Shown here: piece by piece, positions 14,758-63,899 of the stretch | How positions within the stretch are numbered: position 1 is the stretch's first letter | Layout of the letters: every line of letters starts with the position of its first letter | Assembly: GCA_028279275.1 (NCBI GenBank) | Contig: JANQOB010000018.1 | Span: forward strand, 434,001 to 498,000 | DNA: 64,000 bases | Direction of reading: 5' to 3' | Source of the DNA: Gammaproteobacteria bacterium | GTDB lineage: Bacteria; Pseudomonadota; Gammaproteobacteria; UBA4575 | Notes under the pieces: model-generated | Database searches by the model: none | Seen by the model: the letters and a program-made list of their open reading frames with translations, nothing else | What the model was told of the DNA's origin: nothing | Program-made: the position numbers and the translations under genes

Positions 14758-14778
14758 GTCAGCGCAGGAATGTGAGCA

Positions 14779-14807
14779 CAGGACGTGCGAATATGAGGCG
14801 CGTCCTG
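14779..14807. repeat. Hairpin in a GC-richer intergenic patch
   Basis: CAGGACG (14779-14785) pairs with CGTCCTG (14801-14807) across a 15-base loop, inside a short patch (about 14757-14830) that looks more GC-rich than its surroundings and includes further GCG-rich half-repeats. It may be a relative of the structured element at 10240-10372 (shared CTGGATG/CATGGATG-like words), but the match is loose. Confidence 0.3.
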
Positions 14808-14880
14808 GATGACGCGAACTGATTACAGTTATGTGAATTAAAATAATGAATATGTTGGGTAATTCAAATCAAATCTTAAT

Positions 14881-14910
14881 AATGTCTGCTATCGACCCAA
14901 AGCGGACATT
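14881..14910 (+). repeat. 30-nt hairpin element, copy 1 (forward)
   Basis: Arms AATGTCTGCT and AGCGGACATT enclose the 10-base centre ATCGACCCAA. In plus-strand RNA the single non-Watson-Crick position is a U-G wobble, so the stem is 10 bp. Four T follow. It lies directly upstream of the secreted protein gene at 14917 and is one of five copies in the window (others at 15348, 17871, 52299 and 52943). Confidence 0.9.
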
Positions 14911-14916
14911 TTAAAG

Positions 14917-15330
14917 ATGTTAAAAATTCTGCTTATAAGCTTGAAATTCAGTGTGATTGCGTTACTTGCATCACCAGCCTGCACGAATGACACGGACGCA
15001 TCTATTTTCAATAAAATGATTGGAACATGGTCTTATGAAGAAGATTTTGGTGAGAGCGTAGTAACAGCCACACAGGAATTTAAAAGCAATGGCATCGCGT
15101 ATGCTAGCGCATCTATGTATACAAATGGCAAGTTTGTAGGTGTGCATACGTATGTTTCTAGGTGGCAAGTTGAAGATGGTGATGTAACGATGGAAATTAT
15201 TAGTTCAACTAGTAAAAATATAAAAGTCGGACGAATAGATAAAGTGAAAGTTTTATCTATTGATGACAAAGAATTTAACTATATTGAATATGAAATTGAT
15301 AAAAAATTTACGCTGACTAAAATTAAATAA
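14917..15330 (+). CDS. Small secreted protein or lipoprotein, unknown (hairpin-flanked)
   Basis: A 137-residue protein with a hydrophobic N-terminal export signal (about 1-22). The sequence ASPAC at its end could be a weak lipobox lipidated at Cys22. The mature part begins near IFNKMIGTWSYEED and has repeated short beta strands (SRWQVEDGDVTMEII, YIEYEIDKKFTLTKI), resembling a lipocalin-like or small beta-barrel fold; this is inference. The gene is alone between two copies of the 30-nt hairpin in opposite orientations (14881 forward, 15348 inverted), which suggests a self-contained accessory module. No close family is recognised. Confidence 0.75.
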   Translation: MLKILLISLKFSVIALLASPACTNDTDASIFNKMIGTWSYEEDFGESVVTATQEFKSNGIAYASASMYTNGKFVGVHTYVSRWQVEDGDVTMEIISSTSKNIKVGRIDKVKVLSIDDKEFNYIEYEIDKKFTLTKIK

Positions 15331-15347
15331 TACTTAATTGTAATCAT

Positions 15348-15377
15348 AATGTCCGCTATTGGCCGAAAGCAGACATT
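15348..15377 (-). repeat. 30-nt hairpin element, copy 2 (inverted)
   Basis: On the plus strand the arms are AATGTCCGCT and AGCAGACATT. Read on the minus strand they become AATGTCTGCT and AGCGGACATT, identical to copy 1, so this copy is inverted. Its C-A mismatch on the plus strand becomes a G-U pair on the minus strand, supporting that orientation. It closes the module that begins at 14881. Confidence 0.88.
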
Positions 15378-15435
15378 TATAAACGTCATATTTATAGATC
15401 AAATACTGCTAATAAATAATTTATGAGGTGTTTTA

Positions 15436-15846
15436 GTGAGTAATATTGAAAGTTATAAAGTGAATTGCAGTTGTGGAAAAATTGAAATGTCTATGGAAGG
15501 AGCCCCAAGAGTGAGAGGTTTTTGCCATTGTGAAGATTGTCGAGAACTTTTAAATATACCTTATCACTCTGTAAATGCATGGGAAAATAATAAGGTTACA
15601 ACCTTAAAAGGTCATGAATATATTAGAGAATATCAACACCCTAATCTCAATATGAAAAAATTCTATTGTAGTGAATGTGGTGACACTATTTGCAATTCTA
15701 ATGCGATGGATTGGAGGGTATTTTCACAGTTGTTGATTGCTAAATATTACAATGGAAATTTACCAATAGAACTTAATTCTGAATCCCACTTTTTTTATGA
15801 CAGACGCATTATTGATGTCGATGATGAATTGCCTAAACATAGTTGA
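15436..15846 (+). CDS. GFA (glutathione-dependent formaldehyde-activating enzyme-like) family protein
   Basis: A 136-residue zinc protein of the GFA/CENP-V fold. The GTG start at 15436 follows TGAGGTG. The zinc-binding Cys pattern is present: CSCG near residues 11-14, CHCEDC near 31-36 and CSECG near 78-82. The GFA fold was first described for glutathione-dependent formaldehyde handling, but most stand-alone members have unknown substrates. It lies between hairpin copies 2 and 3 in the accessory patch, next to the glutathione-dependent reductase gene on the opposite strand. Confidence 0.88.
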   Translation: MSNIESYKVNCSCGKIEMSMEGAPRVRGFCHCEDCRELLNIPYHSVNAWENNKVTTLKGHEYIREYQHPNLNMKKFYCSECGDTICNSNAMDWRVFSQLLIAKYYNGNLPIELNSESHFFYDRRIIDVDDELPKHS

Positions 15847-15899
15847 TTAAAATGTAATGAGCGAAATTCAAATTATGTTTAGCGATGTTTATATGCTTG

Positions 15900-16835
15900 T
15901 CACTTTATAAATTCTGCTGGACCTTTAGGTACGATGCGATAAGGGTTTATAATTTCATGTGAATAGTAATAGTGTCTTTTGATATGCTCAGAGTGATGGT
16001 TCTTAGAAATCGCATCAATGGCGTAGAGGTTGGCTGTGTATTGAGATAGGTTTCTATAATCAATTATGCGACGAATATTGGTTTTGAAATGAACAAAATA
16101 AACAAGGTCAAACCGTAATAACGTCGGAATTAAACGCAAATCTGCCTCAGTTAGATGCCCACCGACGAGATAATCTTTGCCATCTAAGTGTGTATCCAAT
16201 TGATCTAATACATCGAACAAACTGGTCACCGCTTCATCGTAGGCTTTTTGTGTCTTAGCAAATCCAGCTCGATATACGCCGTTGTTAATATTGTCATAAA
16301 TAAGCTCGTTCCAGTGGTCAATCTCTGGACGCAAGTCTTTTGGATAATAATCTTCTGTGTTACCCGTCAGATGATTAAATCCTGTGTTAAAGATGCGAAT
16401 TATTTCTGAGGATTCATTATTAACGATTTGTTGCGTTTTTTTATCCCAGAGAACTGGCACTGTTACACTTGTGGTGACATCACTCTGTGCTTTTTGATAA
16501 AGCTCGTATAGGTAAGTCAGGTCATACAAACTATCACCAGTTGCTCCGGGAAAGTTAGCATCAAAAGTCCAGCTGTTCTCTAACATATCAGGGTGCACTA
16601 CGCTGACCCCAATGTGGTCTTCTAGCCCTTTAAGAGATCGATAAATCAGGGTTCGTGTTGCCCATGGACATGCATACGAAACATAGAGATGGTAGCGATC
16701 AGTTTCTGGTGTGAAAACAGAGTGATCTTTGTTGATGACTTCACGAAAACTACGTGGTTCACGATCATAGCGACCAGATGTATCGCTTTTTATAAAACTC
16801 GTTTCTACCCATTTTCCATCAACTAACTCGCTCAT
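15900..16835 (-). CDS. Glutathionyl-hydroquinone reductase (YqjG/ECM4-type GST)
   Basis: A 311-residue Xi-class glutathione transferase that reduces glutathionyl-hydroquinones to hydroquinones. The signature CPWA active site (SYACPWATRTL) carries the catalytic Cys near residue 56. The family-specific long N-terminus (DKSDTSGRYDREP-type segment), an all-helical C-terminal domain and the YAID-like loop follow. The length matches YqjG (about 315-330). The divergent gap upstream (16836-17021) holds no gene. Function in this organism is likely quinone detoxification. Confidence 0.9.
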   Translation of the reverse strand: MSELVDGKWVETSFIKSDTSGRYDREPRSFREVINKDHSVFTPETDRYHLYVSYACPWATRTLIYRSLKGLEDHIGVSVVHPDMLENSWTFDANFPGATGDSLYDLTYLYELYQKAQSDVTTSVTVPVLWDKKTQQIVNNESSEIIRIFNTGFNHLTGNTEDYYPKDLRPEIDHWNELIYDNINNGVYRAGFAKTQKAYDEAVTSLFDVLDQLDTHLDGKDYLVGGHLTEADLRLIPTLLRFDLVYFVHFKTNIRRIIDYRNLSQYTANLYAIDAISKNHHSEHIKRHYYYSHEIINPYRIVPKGPAEFIK

Positions 16836-17021
16836 GTCATACGCCTTATGAATTAACTATCAACATGATTGCAGATTTTAATCCTATAGCGTTGAATAAT
16901 AGAATATCAATTGATAAAAACTAAAATTAAAAAGTTGCAAATATCAATTTTCAATTAGAATAGAAAGGCGAATTTGGAAATCGTGAAATTCTATTAAAGC
17001 TATTGGGTAAGTATGCTTGAT

Positions 17022-17435
17022 TCAAGCAGCCTTTGATAAGTCTGCGTCTTCTTCAACACCACCTTGCCATAACATTTCATACCCGAGTTCGTATGTTTCA
17101 CTCGCATATTCAACTAATGCATCAAATTTTTCTTTGAAGACAGTATCTGCATGAGACCGTTCATGCTGCTCATAAGACTTCCAATACGTCACAATTGCGA
17201 TATGTATATTTGTGTCCTTGTTGGATTTTACAGAACCTTCTTCTGAAACAAATCCAGAATACTTAAACACTTGCCCGCCAATAAATCCACCTTCATCATT
17301 ACCGTAAGTGTTCTTGACAACATTACACATTTCGCCGAGCGCGAGTTCTACATCTTCCTCAGATACACCTTGTTTTAGTTTGACAACGTTGTAGAGCATT
17401 ACACAACCAAATGGGATTGTTAGCGGGTTAAACAT
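17022..17435 (-). CDS. ABM-like (dimeric alpha-beta barrel) protein
   Basis: A 137-residue protein whose core (about 13-110) has the ferredoxin-like pattern of antibiotic-biosynthesis-monooxygenase or Dabb proteins: MLYNVVKLKQGVSEED, a helix, IHIAIVTYWKSYEQHERSH, a helix, then YELGYEMLWQGG. The chosen ATG at 17435 has GGAG about 15 bases upstream. The alternative Met at codon 13 (17399) matches the usual family start but has no ribosome site. An acidic C-terminal tail (EEDADLS) is unusual. Members degrade haem or act on quinone-like metabolites, or have no known reaction. Confidence 0.7.
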   Translation of the reverse strand: MFNPLTIPFGCVMLYNVVKLKQGVSEEDVELALGEMCNVVKNTYGNDEGGFIGGQVFKYSGFVSEEGSVKSNKDTNIHIAIVTYWKSYEQHERSHADTVFKEKFDALVEYASETYELGYEMLWQGGVEEDADLSKAA

Positions 17436-17524
17436 AATATTTTATATCTCCATATAATTTAATTTCGGTTAATTTAAATTTAGTCCATTATCAAATTTCA
17501 TCATTGCAATTTTTGCAAAGATAA

Positions 17525-17629
17525 TTATGAAAATGTTATTAGTGCCATAAAATAAGTAGCAGTAATGGCTAAAATCAGTATTCCTAGTTCTTTCCATAAA
17601 GTACACTCGAAGCATTTATCTTTTTTCAT
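17525..17629 (-). CDS. Possible 34-residue small membrane protein
   Basis: In the 500-bp gap between the ABM-like gene and the coiled-coil gene, a minus-strand ATG at 17629 opens 34 codons: a charged, Cys-containing head (MKKDKCFECTLWKE) and one hydrophobic helix (LGILILAITATYFMALITF). AAGGATG lies about 10 bases upstream. Small one-helix proteins of this type are common and often missed. The CxxC-like head (CFEC) could bind metal. The rest of the gap is AT-rich and contains only hairpin copy 3. Confidence 0.4.
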   Translation of the reverse strand: MKKDKCFECTLWKELGILILAITATYFMALITFS

Positions 17630-17870
17630 AGTCTCATCATCCTTTTTAATCGTTAAATAAACTAAAGTGTTCGTATCTAAAATTCATTCATAGTTGAATA
17701 TGTTTTAAATATGCTAAGTGCAGCTATGTTTCTAATCAATTCGTATTAATTTGCACTACAGTTCGTGTTTATCGAATACATTGAAAAATATATACGAAAA
17801 AATCGATATATTATCTAATCGTAGATATACCTAGTCTCTGTAATTAAGACCAATTGGAGTGGAATGCCAG

Positions 17871-17900
17871 AATGACCGCTATGGGTCGAAAGCGGACTAA
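17871..17900 (-). repeat. 30-nt hairpin element, copy 3 (degenerate, inverted)
   Basis: The plus-strand arms AATGACCGCT and AGCGGACTAA keep only the inner CCGCT/AGCGG stem. The minus-strand centre TTCGACCCAT matches the forward copies (ATCGACCCAA) at 8 of 10 positions, so it is an inverted, decayed copy. It lies just downstream of the 398-residue coiled-coil gene. Confidence 0.7.
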
Positions 17901-17935
17901 ATTAACTTTTAATTAAAAGTAAGCGAAATGCTTGA

Positions 17936-52006: not shown

Positions 52007-52082
52007 GGCCAGGTAGCTCAGTTGGTAGAGCAGTGGACTGAAAATCCTCGTGTCGGCAGTTCGATTCTGCCCCTGGCCACCA
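52007..52082 (+). tRNA. tRNA-Phe (GAA)
   Basis: A 76-nt cloverleaf: acceptor GGCCAGG pairs with CCTGGCC, D arm GCTC...GAGC, anticodon arm GGACTGAAAATCC with anticodon GAA, T arm GGCAG-TTCGATTC-CTGCC, and an encoded CCA end. It corresponds to the tRNA-Phe found downstream of yggX in Pseudomonas. Confidence 0.97.
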
Positions 52083-52298
52083 TTAAATCAAAAACTTACT
52101 CAAACTTACTTCTTGCATTATACCTTGGTGCTACTCTGGTGCTACACATGAAATTAAAAGATAAAAAAACTTTTCTTTTCTTTTGTGTTTAAATTTTTAA
52201 ACAAGGGGTAGGGTCTAATAGGTCGACCCGCAATATATAAACCCCTCCCCCTCAAGCCTGGTTCCACCATTCACATGTAACTTTCTTTAATTAGGTAA
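52083..52298. other. Post-tRNA intergenic stretch with short tandem repeats
   Basis: No gene of credible length is visible. Immediately after the tRNA lie AAACTTACT twice (52092-52100, 52102-52110) and GGTGCTAC twice (52127-52134, 52138-52145), then a palindrome GTTTAAATTTTTAAAC (52187-52202) and a G/C-rich complementary pair (GGGTC/GACCC). Such short direct repeats beside a tRNA 3' end are typical of integrase-associated attachment regions, but no integrase gene is present. Confidence 0.45.
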
Positions 52299-52328
52299 AA
52301 TGTCCGCTAACGACCCAAAGCGGACATT
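52299..52328 (+). repeat. 30-nt hairpin element, copy 4 (forward)
   Basis: Perfect 10-bp arms AATGTCCGCT and AGCGGACATT flank the centre AACGACCCAA, which differs from copy 1 at only one position. Six T follow, so on the plus strand it can also act as a terminator. It lies upstream of the secreted protein gene at 52388. Confidence 0.92.
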
Positions 52329-52387
52329 TTTTATTGTAAACATTGATAATATACACCTGTAAATCAGATATACAGAATGGGGGTATT

Positions 52388-52879
52388 ATGAAAGCGAACT
52401 TTAATGGATTTTCTATAATAACTGCTTGTTTACTTTTTTCTGTTTCGAGTCATGCCTTGGCCGAGCAAAAAATTAATTTTAAAGATGAGGCTGTAGTTAA
52501 AAATTTGCTTTTCAATAAAAATTGGCTGTGTACTGTAGGAGATGCCCATCTTGGTGCTCGTGCAACTTGGAAGTTTGAAACCTTGGAAGGAAACAAGGTT
52601 TCTGGATCATTAAGAATGGATGCATGCGTAGGTAGCGCAACGAGTGGTACATCTGCAACTGTTAAAGATGGAACATTTAAAGGTAAATTAAAAAAAGATA
52701 CATTGAAATTTTCTGCAAAACCTCCCTTAGGTGGTGCGTGCACGAATTTCAACGGTAAACTAAAATTCTTCTACTTGGATGGAACTGATTTACAAGCTGA
52801 GGGGAAATACAATCGATCAGAAGCAGATGGCTCTGGTGGGTTGAGAGGAACCATAATCTGTTATGTAGAAGATGTTTAA
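52388..52879 (+). CDS. Small secreted protein, unknown (hairpin-flanked)
   Basis: A 163-residue exported protein from ATG 52388 (preceded by GGGGG); an ATG 15 codons upstream would place extra charged residues before the signal peptide. Signal peptide about 1-24 (HALAEQK). The mature part has a repeated beta pattern, four Cys that could form two disulfides (WLCTVGD, DACVGSA, GGACTNF and TIICYVED) and no recognised family. The gene is bracketed by hairpin copies 4 (forward) and 5 (inverted), like the unrelated gene at 14917. Confidence 0.78.
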   Translation: MKANFNGFSIITACLLFSVSSHALAEQKINFKDEAVVKNLLFNKNWLCTVGDAHLGARATWKFETLEGNKVSGSLRMDACVGSATSGTSATVKDGTFKGKLKKDTLKFSAKPPLGGACTNFNGKLKFFYLDGTDLQAEGKYNRSEADGSGGLRGTIICYVEDV

Positions 52880-52942
52880 TTAAGTTAACTCTTATAATTC
52901 TTTACAATCCATAGATCTATAATAGTATTTCTTAAAACCTTA

Positions 52943-52972
52943 AATGTCCGCTATTGGCCGTAAGCAGACATT
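52943..52972 (-). repeat. 30-nt hairpin element, copy 5 (inverted)
   Basis: Plus-strand arms AATGTCCGCT / AGCAGACATT with centre ATTGGCCGTA differ from copy 2 (15348) at a single base. Read on the minus strand, the arms match copy 1 exactly. It closes the 52299-52972 module. Confidence 0.9.
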
Positions 52973-60986: not shown

Positions 60987-61754
60987 TTAATTTCTCGTGC
61001 CTAATATAATATCTTTTTGCTGCAATTGAGTTAAAGTTGTTAAACCACCTTGGATAATTACATTTTCCTCAAGATTGGGTGTTTCTTTGGCAAGGCTCTG
61101 CAGAATTTGTTTACCAGATTGTTGTTCGTTATCAGCAATATGTTTAACCAGGCTAGCAGTCATAGGGTTCATTTCTAAAAAACCAACTTTATCTTGTAGA
61201 TCTCTATAGACAAGTAGATAAGTAGGTTCCTCGTTAGCTATCTTAGGTTGAAAACCAGGTTTGATTTTGTGCACTGGAAATTGATATTGGTTCAGATGAA
61301 TCAGAGGAGATAACACGGGTACTTCTTCAAGTAAATTTCCTTGTTGATTTATATTATTCCAGTCTATTTCTACATCAAGAAACGATAAATAAATTTCTAA
61401 CCACTCATAATGAGTTAGCTCTAATAAGAAAAGTGGGTCTTCTGGCTGTGGTTCACGTTCATTAGATAGATACTTAATAAATTCTTTTGAGATATCTTTA
61501 AAGTAGGGTGAATGGCTCTGGTGAATAGAAAAGAAGTCGCGCACCATTTTGTGCCAGTTTTCATCAGAGTAAAGTTTTCTTGTTACCGGGAAACCATTCG
61601 CTAAAAAGCCCTGCACATTGCGGTATAACAGACCGCGATAAATTTCCATGCGGCGATCTTCTATTTCAGTGGGCGCAGGATTATTTTCTGGATCTCTAAG
61701 ATGAGCAGTAAACTGATACTGCACATCTTTAAAATTTTTTATTGCTTCAGGCAT
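60987..61754 (-). CDS. hvfC: HvfC family RiPP maturation partner (DUF2063)
   Basis: A 255-residue protein with the DUF2063 N-terminal helical domain (about 8-100: FTAHLRDPENNPAPTEIEDRRMEIYRGL, quoted in parts as DRRMEIYRGLLYRNVQGFL) and a C-terminal winged-helix-like region (about 185-255) with YRDLQDKVGFLEMNP. DUF2063 partners bring the peptide substrate to MNIO enzymes. It overlaps the upstream hvfB gene by 8 bp and is the last gene of the four-gene copper-peptide cluster. Confidence 0.9.
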   Translation of the reverse strand: MPEAIKNFKDVQYQFTAHLRDPENNPAPTEIEDRRMEIYRGLLYRNVQGFLANGFPVTRKLYSDENWHKMVRDFFSIHQSHSPYFKDISKEFIKYLSNEREPQPEDPLFLLELTHYEWLEIYLSFLDVEIDWNNINQQGNLLEEVPVLSPLIHLNQYQFPVHKIKPGFQPKIANEEPTYLLVYRDLQDKVGFLEMNPMTASLVKHIADNEQQSGKQILQSLAKETPNLEENVIIQGGLTTLTQLQQKDIILGTRN

Positions 61755-62619
61755 TAGCTATCGCCGTTTTGTTTTGTGGTTCCCATTTTTCTTGTAGCAT
61801 CGATATACGGTCGACTTCTTGTAGTAATTCAGGTAGCTCGGGAATATTAAAGTCACGTTCTAGCAAAGTAGGGAATACACCAAATATTTCATATGCTTTA
61901 TCTAAAATTTCCCAAACTGACTCGATCACATTTGCCCCATGGGTGTCGACAATTAAATCATCCGCTTCATTATAGTGACCTGCGATATGAGCATAACTTA
62001 TTCGCTCTTTAGGTAATGCCGTTAAAAAATCAACTGCATCATAACCATGGTTGACTGAATTAACATAGATGTTATTTATATCTAGCAAAAGATCGCAATC
62101 AGCTTCCTGAAGAACTGCATTAATGAAATCGATTTCTTCCATTTGTTTGCCAGGCGCTGCGTAATAAGATGCATTTTCCATAGCAATGCGTTCACCGAGT
62201 ACGTCTTGTACTTGTTTTATTCGATTGGCTACGTAATGCACTGCTTCCTCTGTAAACGGGATAGGCAGTAAGTCATATAAATGACCATCATCAGAGCAGT
62301 AAGTTAAATGTTCTGTGTACTTAAGAATATTATGCTGTTGCATAAAATTTTTGATGTCGTTAACTAGATCAACATCAATCGGTGTGGGTCCTCCAATGGA
62401 TAACGATAAACCGTGAGTGACAAATGGATAACGTTCCGTGTATTGGCGAAAACGTTTACCAAGACGACCACCCATACCAATCCAGTTTTCAGGCGCGACT
62501 TCCATGAACTGAATTTGCGGTGCATCTGTTTCAAGAAGTTGTTCCAACATATGTCCGCGACGTAAACCTAGGCCAGCACCTTTTACACAGTAAGTTTGAG
62601 AGTGTGTTGGATTTTTCAT
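61747..62619 (-). CDS. hvfB: HvfB family MNIO-type RiPP maturase (DUF692)
   Basis: A 290-residue TIM-barrel, multinuclear non-haem iron oxidase. MNIOs oxidise peptide cysteines; in the HvfA/bufferin class they form oxazolone-thioamide or thiooxazole groups. Iron-ligand regions visible: FMEVAPENWIGMGG, THGLSLSIGGPTPID, HLTYCSDDGHLYD, AMENASYYAAPG, LLLDINNIYVNSVNHGYD and YAHIAGHYNEADDLIVDTHG, followed by LLERDFNIPEL. The usual His, Asp, Asn and Glu ligands are therefore in place. hvfC overlaps its 3' end and hvfX lies 36 bp upstream. Confidence 0.93.
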   Translation of the reverse strand: MKNPTHSQTYCVKGAGLGLRRGHMLEQLLETDAPQIQFMEVAPENWIGMGGRLGKRFRQYTERYPFVTHGLSLSIGGPTPIDVDLVNDIKNFMQQHNILKYTEHLTYCSDDGHLYDLLPIPFTEEAVHYVANRIKQVQDVLGERIAMENASYYAAPGKQMEEIDFINAVLQEADCDLLLDINNIYVNSVNHGYDAVDFLTALPKERISYAHIAGHYNEADDLIVDTHGANVIESVWEILDKAYEIFGVFPTLLERDFNIPELPELLQEVDRISMLQEKWEPQNKTAIANA

Positions 62620-62655
62620 ATTTATGTTGGAAGAAATTGTCTCAGAGCACGGTAA

Positions 62656-63264
62656 TTATTCTTTGGAGAATATTAAAGATAAATAATAGTCGATACTTAG
62701 ATATCGCCCAGCGCCCATGAAAAATAGTGCTAACAACATAATGAAGTAAGCGCTAGCAACTTCTATCCCATTCTTGAGGATAGTAATGCTTCCAGTCTCG
62801 CTTAAGTACTTATAGTTAGCATGTTCTTTTAACACGTTTTTAACAATGGCTTTACGCTTATTGCCTTCTTCGATTAAATCAGTGCGCCATTCCCATGGAA
62901 CAGTTTGATTGGCCTCATGAAATTGATGCCAGCCATTTCCCCAGTGTGCTGTAGTGGCTGCTACTATCATCGTGATCATTAACGGTATAGTAAACCAGCG
63001 AACTGCGAAGCCGATGAGTAACGCTATGCCACCAAATAGTTCAGCACCGCCAGCTAAATAAACCATTAACTCTGGGAAAGGCAGGTTTAACGAGTGCTCA
63101 AACCATAGAGCGGTATTGTGAATGCTTTCTTTACTACCGATTTTAGATAGACCCGCATAAATCATAATTGGTGCTAGGAATATACGCAGTAACAATGGCG
63201 CTAAAAAATCTATTGCGCGAAATTTATAGATAAATGAGTTAATGCTATAGATAAAATTGATCAT
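62656..63264 (-). CDS. hvfX: DoxX-like HvfX membrane protein
   Basis: A 202-residue inner-membrane protein of the DoxX superfamily, HvfX type. Four hydrophobic segments (about 20-40, 65-85, 90-108 and 168-188) with APLLLRIFLAPIMIYAGLSKIG and YLAGGAELFGGIALLIGFAVR. A hydrophilic insert of about 55 residues (TAHWGNGWHQFHEANQ, then EEGNKRKAIVKNVLK) separates the third and fourth helices; its GNGWH motif and His residues are typical of HvfX and could bind copper. GGAG precedes the ATG. It sits between the peptide gene and the maturase. Confidence 0.85.
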   Translation of the reverse strand: MINFIYSINSFIYKFRAIDFLAPLLLRIFLAPIMIYAGLSKIGSKESIHNTALWFEHSLNLPFPELMVYLAGGAELFGGIALLIGFAVRWFTIPLMITMIVAATTAHWGNGWHQFHEANQTVPWEWRTDLIEEGNKRKAIVKNVLKEHANYKYLSETGSITILKNGIEVASAYFIMLLALFFMGAGRYLSIDYYLSLIFSKE

Positions 63265-63539
63265 TGTGGCTCCGGAAAAATAAAGAGTCAGTGTCTTGGT
63301 TGTTATAAAGACCTAGAGATGGGTCTATATCATTACAAGTTATTATTTTTATTTTTGTAGACTGTAATTAATAAGCTTAAGTGTATGTTGTAAAGTAAGT
63401 TATGAGTGAATATAGGAAATGTAAGAAGCAGGAATACCGATGATAAAATGGCGGCTTCATCCGTGAAACCGCCGTTTTATAATTAGATCCGACACAAAGT
63501 CGGTCTGCGAAAGTGAATGTTAATTAACACAGTATGTTA
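63265..63539. other. Intergenic region between hvfA and hvfX
   Basis: No gene is visible in these 275 bp. It contains the hvfA terminator (about 63443-63480), a small stem CCGAC/GTCGG near 63491-63505, a loose inverted repeat GACCT...GGGTC near 63311-63326, and the GGAG ribosome site of hvfX. A separate hvfX promoter is possible. Confidence 0.5.
63443..63480 (-). terminator. Terminator or attenuator after hvfA
   Basis: On the minus strand GGCGGTTTC and GAAGCCGCC pair with one G-U wobble around loop ACGGAT, flanked by AAAA and TTTTA. It stops most hvfA transcription about 60 bp past the stop codon while some may read into hvfX-hvfB-hvfC. This would give more peptide than enzyme. Confidence 0.8.
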
Positions 63540-63899
63540 TTAACCTTCGTCTTCACCGCATTTGCCTTCTCCACACTTTCCTTCTTCGGCTTTACCTTCA
63601 CCTTCACCACATTTGCCTTCGCCGCACTTGCCCTCACCGCACTTACCTTCACCACATTTGCCTTCCTCGGCTTTACCTTCACCTTCACCACATTTACCTT
63701 CGCCGCACTTGCCCTCTCCACACTTTCCTTCTTCGGCTTTGTCTTCGCTATGGTTATCAGCAACCATGTAACCTGATGAAAGTTCAGTTAGTTCAAAAGG
63801 GTTAGTATTTGCACTTGCAGTTGGTAAAACAAATACACTAGTAGTCAATGCAGCACCAATCGCTGCAGCTAAAGGTTTAAGTTCGTATTTCTTAGACAT
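63540..63899 (-). CDS. hvfA: HvfA family copper-binding RiPP precursor with nine EGKCG motifs
   Basis: A 119-residue secreted precursor. Signal peptide about 1-30 (LPTASANTNP). A short acidic region follows (FELTELSSGYMVADNHSEDK), then the core: nine EGKCG/EGKCGE motifs in three blocks of 3, 4 and 2, separated by two identical EGEGKAE spacers, ending CGEDEG. Each block contributes one Cys per five residues. In the related Haemophilus system the EGKCG cysteines become oxazolone-thioamide groups that bind copper; the same is inferred here. Transcribed first in the cluster, upstream of hvfX-hvfB-hvfC. GGAG precedes the ATG. Confidence 0.92.
   Translation of the reverse strand: MSKKYELKPLAAAIGAALTTSVFVLPTASANTNPFELTELSSGYMVADNHSEDKAEEGKCGEGKCGEGKCGEGEGKAEEGKCGEGKCGEGKCGEGKCGEGEGKAEEGKCGEGKCGEDEG

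Follow-up and report, generated by a model that had tools for sequence, protein, structure and literature searches.

The genome of an uncultured gammaproteobacterium (the host, G000; 2.70 Mb, assembly 95% complete) contains many small accessory genes that are enclosed by paired short palindromes, either alone or in arrays, and these units are very probably exchangeable cassettes of some kind. Two of them, modules 1 and 2, lie in the 64,000-nucleotide stretch of host DNA that was analyzed (the window), and both are solo members of the genome-wide system. Each unit is bounded by two types of site: A, a 28-bp palindrome with the center AACGACCCAA, is found 5' of the gene, and B, a related palindrome with the center ATTGGCCGAA, is found 3' of it.

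Paired palindromes are enriched across the host genome

Allowing up to 3 mismatches, the site pattern gave 74 forward and 76 reverse matches in the host genome, a tally in which many sites are counted on both strands, and a reversed-pattern control at the same threshold gave none. Palindrome sites are far above chance genome-wide. Within the window, 10 strand-matches were obtained, corresponding to 5 sites, compared with 0.21 expected and no more than 3 in each of 100 shuffles; the sites are restricted to two accessory spots. A reading of the window made from the sequence alone (the sequence-only reading) had argued that two bracketed modules were hard to explain by chance, and these counts bear it out, as do the dozens of further modules present in the genome. 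Beyond the host, sites were detected in 12 of 55 relatives (≤2 mismatches) and in 9 of 370 genomes of the class (≤1 mismatch).

Modules 1 and 2 are bracketed by a matching palindrome pair in the order A-gene-B, and their B copies differ at one base, both as described in the sequence-only reading. The A copies, which had been said to differ at one center base, in fact differ at two, one in an arm and one in the center. B had further been described as an inverted copy of A. Mismatch counts gave this no advantage (6/28 inverted versus 5/28 direct): each copy being a palindrome in its own right, A and B match about equally in either direction. What nevertheless favors the inverted reading is arm conservation, which is higher in the gene-facing arm of both types: arm 2 of A carries 19.6 bits versus 15.2 for arm 1, and arm 1 of B carries 17.3 versus 16.4 for arm 2, the latter being a small difference. 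In alignments, the outer ends of the junctions read ATGWCCGCT... and ...AGCGGACAT.

Arm positions 4, 6, and 8 vary without compensation, by counts that are rough in that some sites were entered as both types, A resembling reversed B; pairing is therefore not what is kept. This bears on the proposal, raised as an alternative in the sequence-only reading, that the palindromes act to terminate transcription or to insulate the accessory genes they surround. Module 2 A does fold strongly (−15.7 kcal/mol, z −4.2) and is followed by a T-run. However, the coding-strand fold of module 2 B yields only −8.2 kcal/mol; of the 8 bases that follow a site in either direction, about 3 on average are T, with few copies reaching 5; the arms lack the covariation of an RNA hairpin; and terminator-like matches in the array are at chance level. 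A GC-rich stem with a T-tract at most copies, which would mark intrinsic terminators, was not found, and we regard this explanation as very improbable.

Module 2 lies downstream of a tRNA-Phe gene

The tRNA-Phe gene upstream of module 2 (52007..52082, + strand) is kept in congeners, where unrelated DNA is found 3' of it. Module 2 consists of the upstream palindrome A (ATGTCCGCTAACGACCCAAAGCGGACAT; 52300..52327, +), a single cargo gene, and the downstream palindrome B (ATGTCCGCTATTGGCCGTAAGCAGACAT; 52944..52971, +). The cargo is best read as a 163-amino-acid open reading frame (ORF) (52388..52879, +) with a signal-like N-terminal segment and without a Pfam match. Its homologue in the congener G003, 34% identical in amino acid sequence by pairwise alignment, is a cassette within an array. 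Structure prediction returned an 8-stranded barrel (mean pLDDT 72, a low-to-moderate model) that, as modeled, would weakly resemble an avidin/calycin fold. A promoter-like pair, CGGACA-N18-GATAAT (52321..52350, +), is a consensus match alone and has its first hexamer within the inner arm of A; promoter-like matches in the region are not above chance. Among the congeners compared, no clean empty site was obtained for module 2.

Two further features of the window were recorded. Immediately 3' of the tRNA-Phe gene (52083-52150) is a short GGTGCTAC repeat that is common to the genome G001 and is possibly an old integration end. Toward the end of the window (60987-63899, − strand), an ORF with EGKCG repeats is followed by DoxX-like and DUF692-like genes and another ORF; read by eye, this looks like a bufferin/HvfABC-type RiPP cluster.

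Module 1 lies in an insert that is absent from related genomes

Module 1 comprises palindrome A (14882..14909, +), a 137-amino-acid cargo that is small and exported or lipoprotein-like (14917..15330, +), and palindrome B (15349..15376, +). The cargo matched Lipocalin_4 below the cut-off (E 0.016). Before the module is a promoter-like element, TTGGGT-N17-AATAAT (14855..14883, +), of the type and A-spacing seen in array linkers (see below); this element is absent at module 2, where the promoter-like match reaching into A is a different one. The module is part of a 3.1-kb insert (14758..17935), the far end of which carries a fifth and weaker window copy of the palindrome, a degenerate A type (17872..17899, −). 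At the orthologous locus in four genomes of two genera (G001, G002, G003, and G006), the insert is absent and the genes that flank it are nearly adjacent. Empty sites, which the sequence-only reading had suggested looking for, thus exist for module 1.

Between module 1 B and the degenerate fifth palindrome (15436-17435), the insert also encodes a GFA-family enzyme and a protein resembling glutathione S-transferases, and it has a small ORF there as well; the 3.1-kb insert is a possible compound module.

Arrays are built of head-to-tail cassettes joined by a promoter-like linker

An array of ~16 kb with 41 sites was found on contig C1 of the host, with more arrays and solo modules on other contigs. 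Cassettes follow one another head to tail (A-gene-B, spacer, A-gene-B), and arrays begin with A and finish with B, the linker being internal only. From the start of B to the start of the next A, the distance is 73 bp at 18 of 19 host junctions and 83 bp at 15 of 17 junctions of G003, a complete congener genome; the linker itself measures 45 to 55 bp, or ~101 to 111 bp with both palindromes. By our count, the main ORF reads from A to B in 48 of 54 A-to-B intervals. It usually starts within 45 bp of A and ends no more than tens of bases from B, with a stop codon that sometimes overlaps B. About one tenth of intervals depart from the A-gene-B order, and at some junctions there is just one palindrome.

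In the linkers of 34 of 36 junctions, a TTGG-N17-NANAAT element lies at a constant distance from A, with a mean score of 8.3/12 compared with ≤5.2 at other offsets; these promoter-like elements are consensus matches only. TTGG occupies the −35 place, and the second, AT-rich hexamer overlaps the start of A. The 10-bp difference in linker length between the host and G003 sits upstream of the element. Cargo is diverse: 24 Pfam families were recognized among 42 cassette proteins, nearly every family from one protein. The cargo includes an Mrr-type endonuclease, a type VI secretion system (T6SS) immunity family, and a glyoxalase, alongside many unknown families.

A second repeat, GTGCGAATATGAGTCGCATC...GGATGATGC, is present at 14775-14830 of the window and at array flanks in both genomes, just outside the arrays. 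It precedes 5 of 39 leading A sites in constant orientation and is found, invariably inverted, after 7 of 44 trailing B sites; it occurs at none of the array junctions. This repeat may be an outer border mark or an insertion target.

Cassettes differ between genomes and end at the palindromes

One cassette is duplicated in the host, with a copy in the C1 array (C1:21925) and a solo copy on another contig (C8:92061) that are 95.4% identical over 349 bp. Homology runs from the middle of A into B; the two copies have different outer arms and flanks and no linker in common. In a second case, a 155-amino-acid gene is 73% identical between the host and G003, and DNA homology begins at the edge of a palindrome; the palindrome upstream of the gene is B in one genome and A in the other. 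Orthologous loci also carry different cassettes. At one locus, with flanking genes 90% and 87% identical, the cassette-type content of the host spans ~9 kb, against ~2 kb of unrelated content in G003, and at a second locus, placed by one conserved flank, the cassettes of the host and G003 are different. These differences in array content are between species, not strains. Together, the further modules, the empty module 1 locus, and the alternative cargo in the congener support the suggestion of the sequence-only reading that the modules are exchangeable cassettes.

An alternative needs no dedicated recombinase: cassettes would be exchanged through ordinary homologous recombination, as might follow natural transformation, and palindromes and linkers would provide only shared homology. 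A dedicated enzyme was indeed not found in the host, and each junction offers ~101 to 111 bp of shared sequence (linker plus both palindromes). Yet where the duplicated cassette stands alone, its surroundings have no more than the 28-bp sites in common with those of the array copy, which is short for RecA, and neither the fixed orientation nor the fixed linker length would be required. We consider this route unlikely. Still more doubtful is a reading of the palindromes as dispersed intergenic repeats of REP/BIME or RIME character, which insert beside accessory genes and bracket them only incidentally, the genes themselves not being mobile units. Related single palindromes are scattered in Escherichia coli, Klebsiella, rhizobial, and metagenomic sequences, and the two-palindrome composite linkers resemble mosaic intergenic elements, but against this reading the sites occupy only two accessory spots in the window, roughly nine in ten intervals have A 5' and B 3' of the gene, and the homology of the duplicated cassette stops at the palindromes. 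Furthermore, no Y1_Tnp domain was found in 11 of the 12 genomes searched, the host included.

A proposed site-specific mechanism and candidate recombinases

Our preferred interpretation is that each module is a single-gene mobile cassette between two related recombination sites, and on balance we think this probable. Crossover would occur within the 28-bp sites or close to them. Recombination of A with A, or of B with B, would excise a circle composed of the gene, B, the linker, and A, and an array would grow by integration of this circle at A or B. Such excision and integration would produce the observed array layout, in which A comes first, B last, and the linker only between cassettes; in addition, the linker would carry the promoter of the next cassette. 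Our best guess for the enzyme is a tyrosine recombinase acting in trans or in an ancestor, in which case the host arrays would be orphans. Integrons provide a parallel in CALINs, attC clusters that lack an integrase.

A PF00589 search of the host genome recovered XerC and XerD as the only tyrosine recombinases; as the assembly is 95% complete, the enzyme could be missing from it. No recombinase lies beside the arrays in the host or beside most congener arrays, and the extra tyrosine recombinases of G003, G006, and G018 do not adjoin arrays. That XerC and XerD stand alone in the host invites the explanation that A and B are pdif-like sites of these enzymes, as in dif modules, in which inverted sites likewise bound single-gene modules; the 28-bp sites can moreover be read as 11-6-11 with one arm the stronger. 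The host dif site was located, however, as CGCATAA-TATATA-TTATGTTAAAT, and has no motif in common with A or B. The XerCD/pdif assignment was rejected accordingly and retains a negligible probability.

For the putative site-specific enzyme, a lead only is provided by G005, a complete genome of another genus, in which cassettes have a single B-type palindrome apiece and run outward from an A-A pair at the center. Two of its examined arrays end ~25 bp before a convergent gene for a 208-amino-acid tyrosine recombinase, and two do not. The family of this recombinase is common on proteobacterial plasmids, and in the places examined, copies elsewhere had no A/B-like palindromes adjoining. Among the 370 class genomes, the short recombinase occurs in 12 and the sites (≤1 mismatch) in 9, with G005 as the sole overlap, and a general link between the two was rejected. 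In G001, a gene for a phage-type integrase of a different family (L140:452-1579) ends 8 bp from an A site, beside prs. Targeting of tRNA genes was also rejected as a rule, since most arrays are not at tRNA genes.

Relatives of the sites in enterobacteria and wider relevance

Related single palindromes were found in E. coli, including prophage regions, and on enterobacterial plasmids (L190-L194). Several of the sites opened adjoin toxin-antitoxin genes, some near relBE and vapBC. Searches of the open-access literature by sequence and by concept found no prior description of the A/B repeat. More tentatively, these elements could form a separate cassette-array system, defined by a 28-bp site pair of its own, a linker that bears a promoter, and a putative recombinase; its related sites in enterobacteria would be those next to toxin-antitoxin and other accessory genes. 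To our knowledge, few systems other than integrons and dif modules stockpile and swap single genes. If A and B are true recombination sites, they would represent a further route by which small accessory genes spread, and they offer a simple handle for cassettes missed by integron searches.

Comparison with known systems

Known RNA families were rejected, as Rfam matches were to tRNAs only. REP/BIME elements with their RAYT enzymes and rhizobial mosaic elements are, like A and B, short dispersed imperfect palindromes that are partly paired, whereas A and B enclose individual accessory genes, in a set order. RAYT/REP was rejected given that no Y1_Tnp, and hence no IS200/IS605-type Y1 transposase, was found in the host.

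Like integrons and CALINs, the A/B arrays are unidirectional and hold mixed, mostly hypothetical single-ORF cassettes in the same orientation with one recombination-type element per junction, and their content differs between relatives (here, between species). Unlike an attC site, which is a single folded element, the A/B junction consists of two palindromes and a promoter-like linker, and solo A-gene-B copies occur at several loci. The outer R boxes of attC carry AAC and GTT (PMC2727003); this conserved pair is absent from the A/B junction alignments. No IntI was detected in the host by the PF00589 search, and the short recombinase of G005 scored 21.5 bits versus a cut-off of 265 for the IntI model. 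A canonical integron was thus rejected for want of IntI and the attC boxes.

A dif or pdif site consists of a XerC arm, a 6-bp spacer, and the XerD arm TTATGTTAAAT (PMC13141974). The Acinetobacter dif modules recombined by XerC/XerD are likewise small and set between inversely oriented 28-bp sites readable as 11-6-11, and such inversely oriented 28-bp sites surround each A/B module. The A/B sequence is nevertheless unrelated to dif/pdif; neighboring dif modules share one site, whereas A/B cassettes are joined by a linker; and the A/B cassettes are chromosomal and belong to another lineage. We set the A/B system apart from integrons and dif modules because the defining sequence or enzyme tested for each was not found. 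Overall, its layout is integron-like and its site geometry is dif-module-like, and we assign it to neither.
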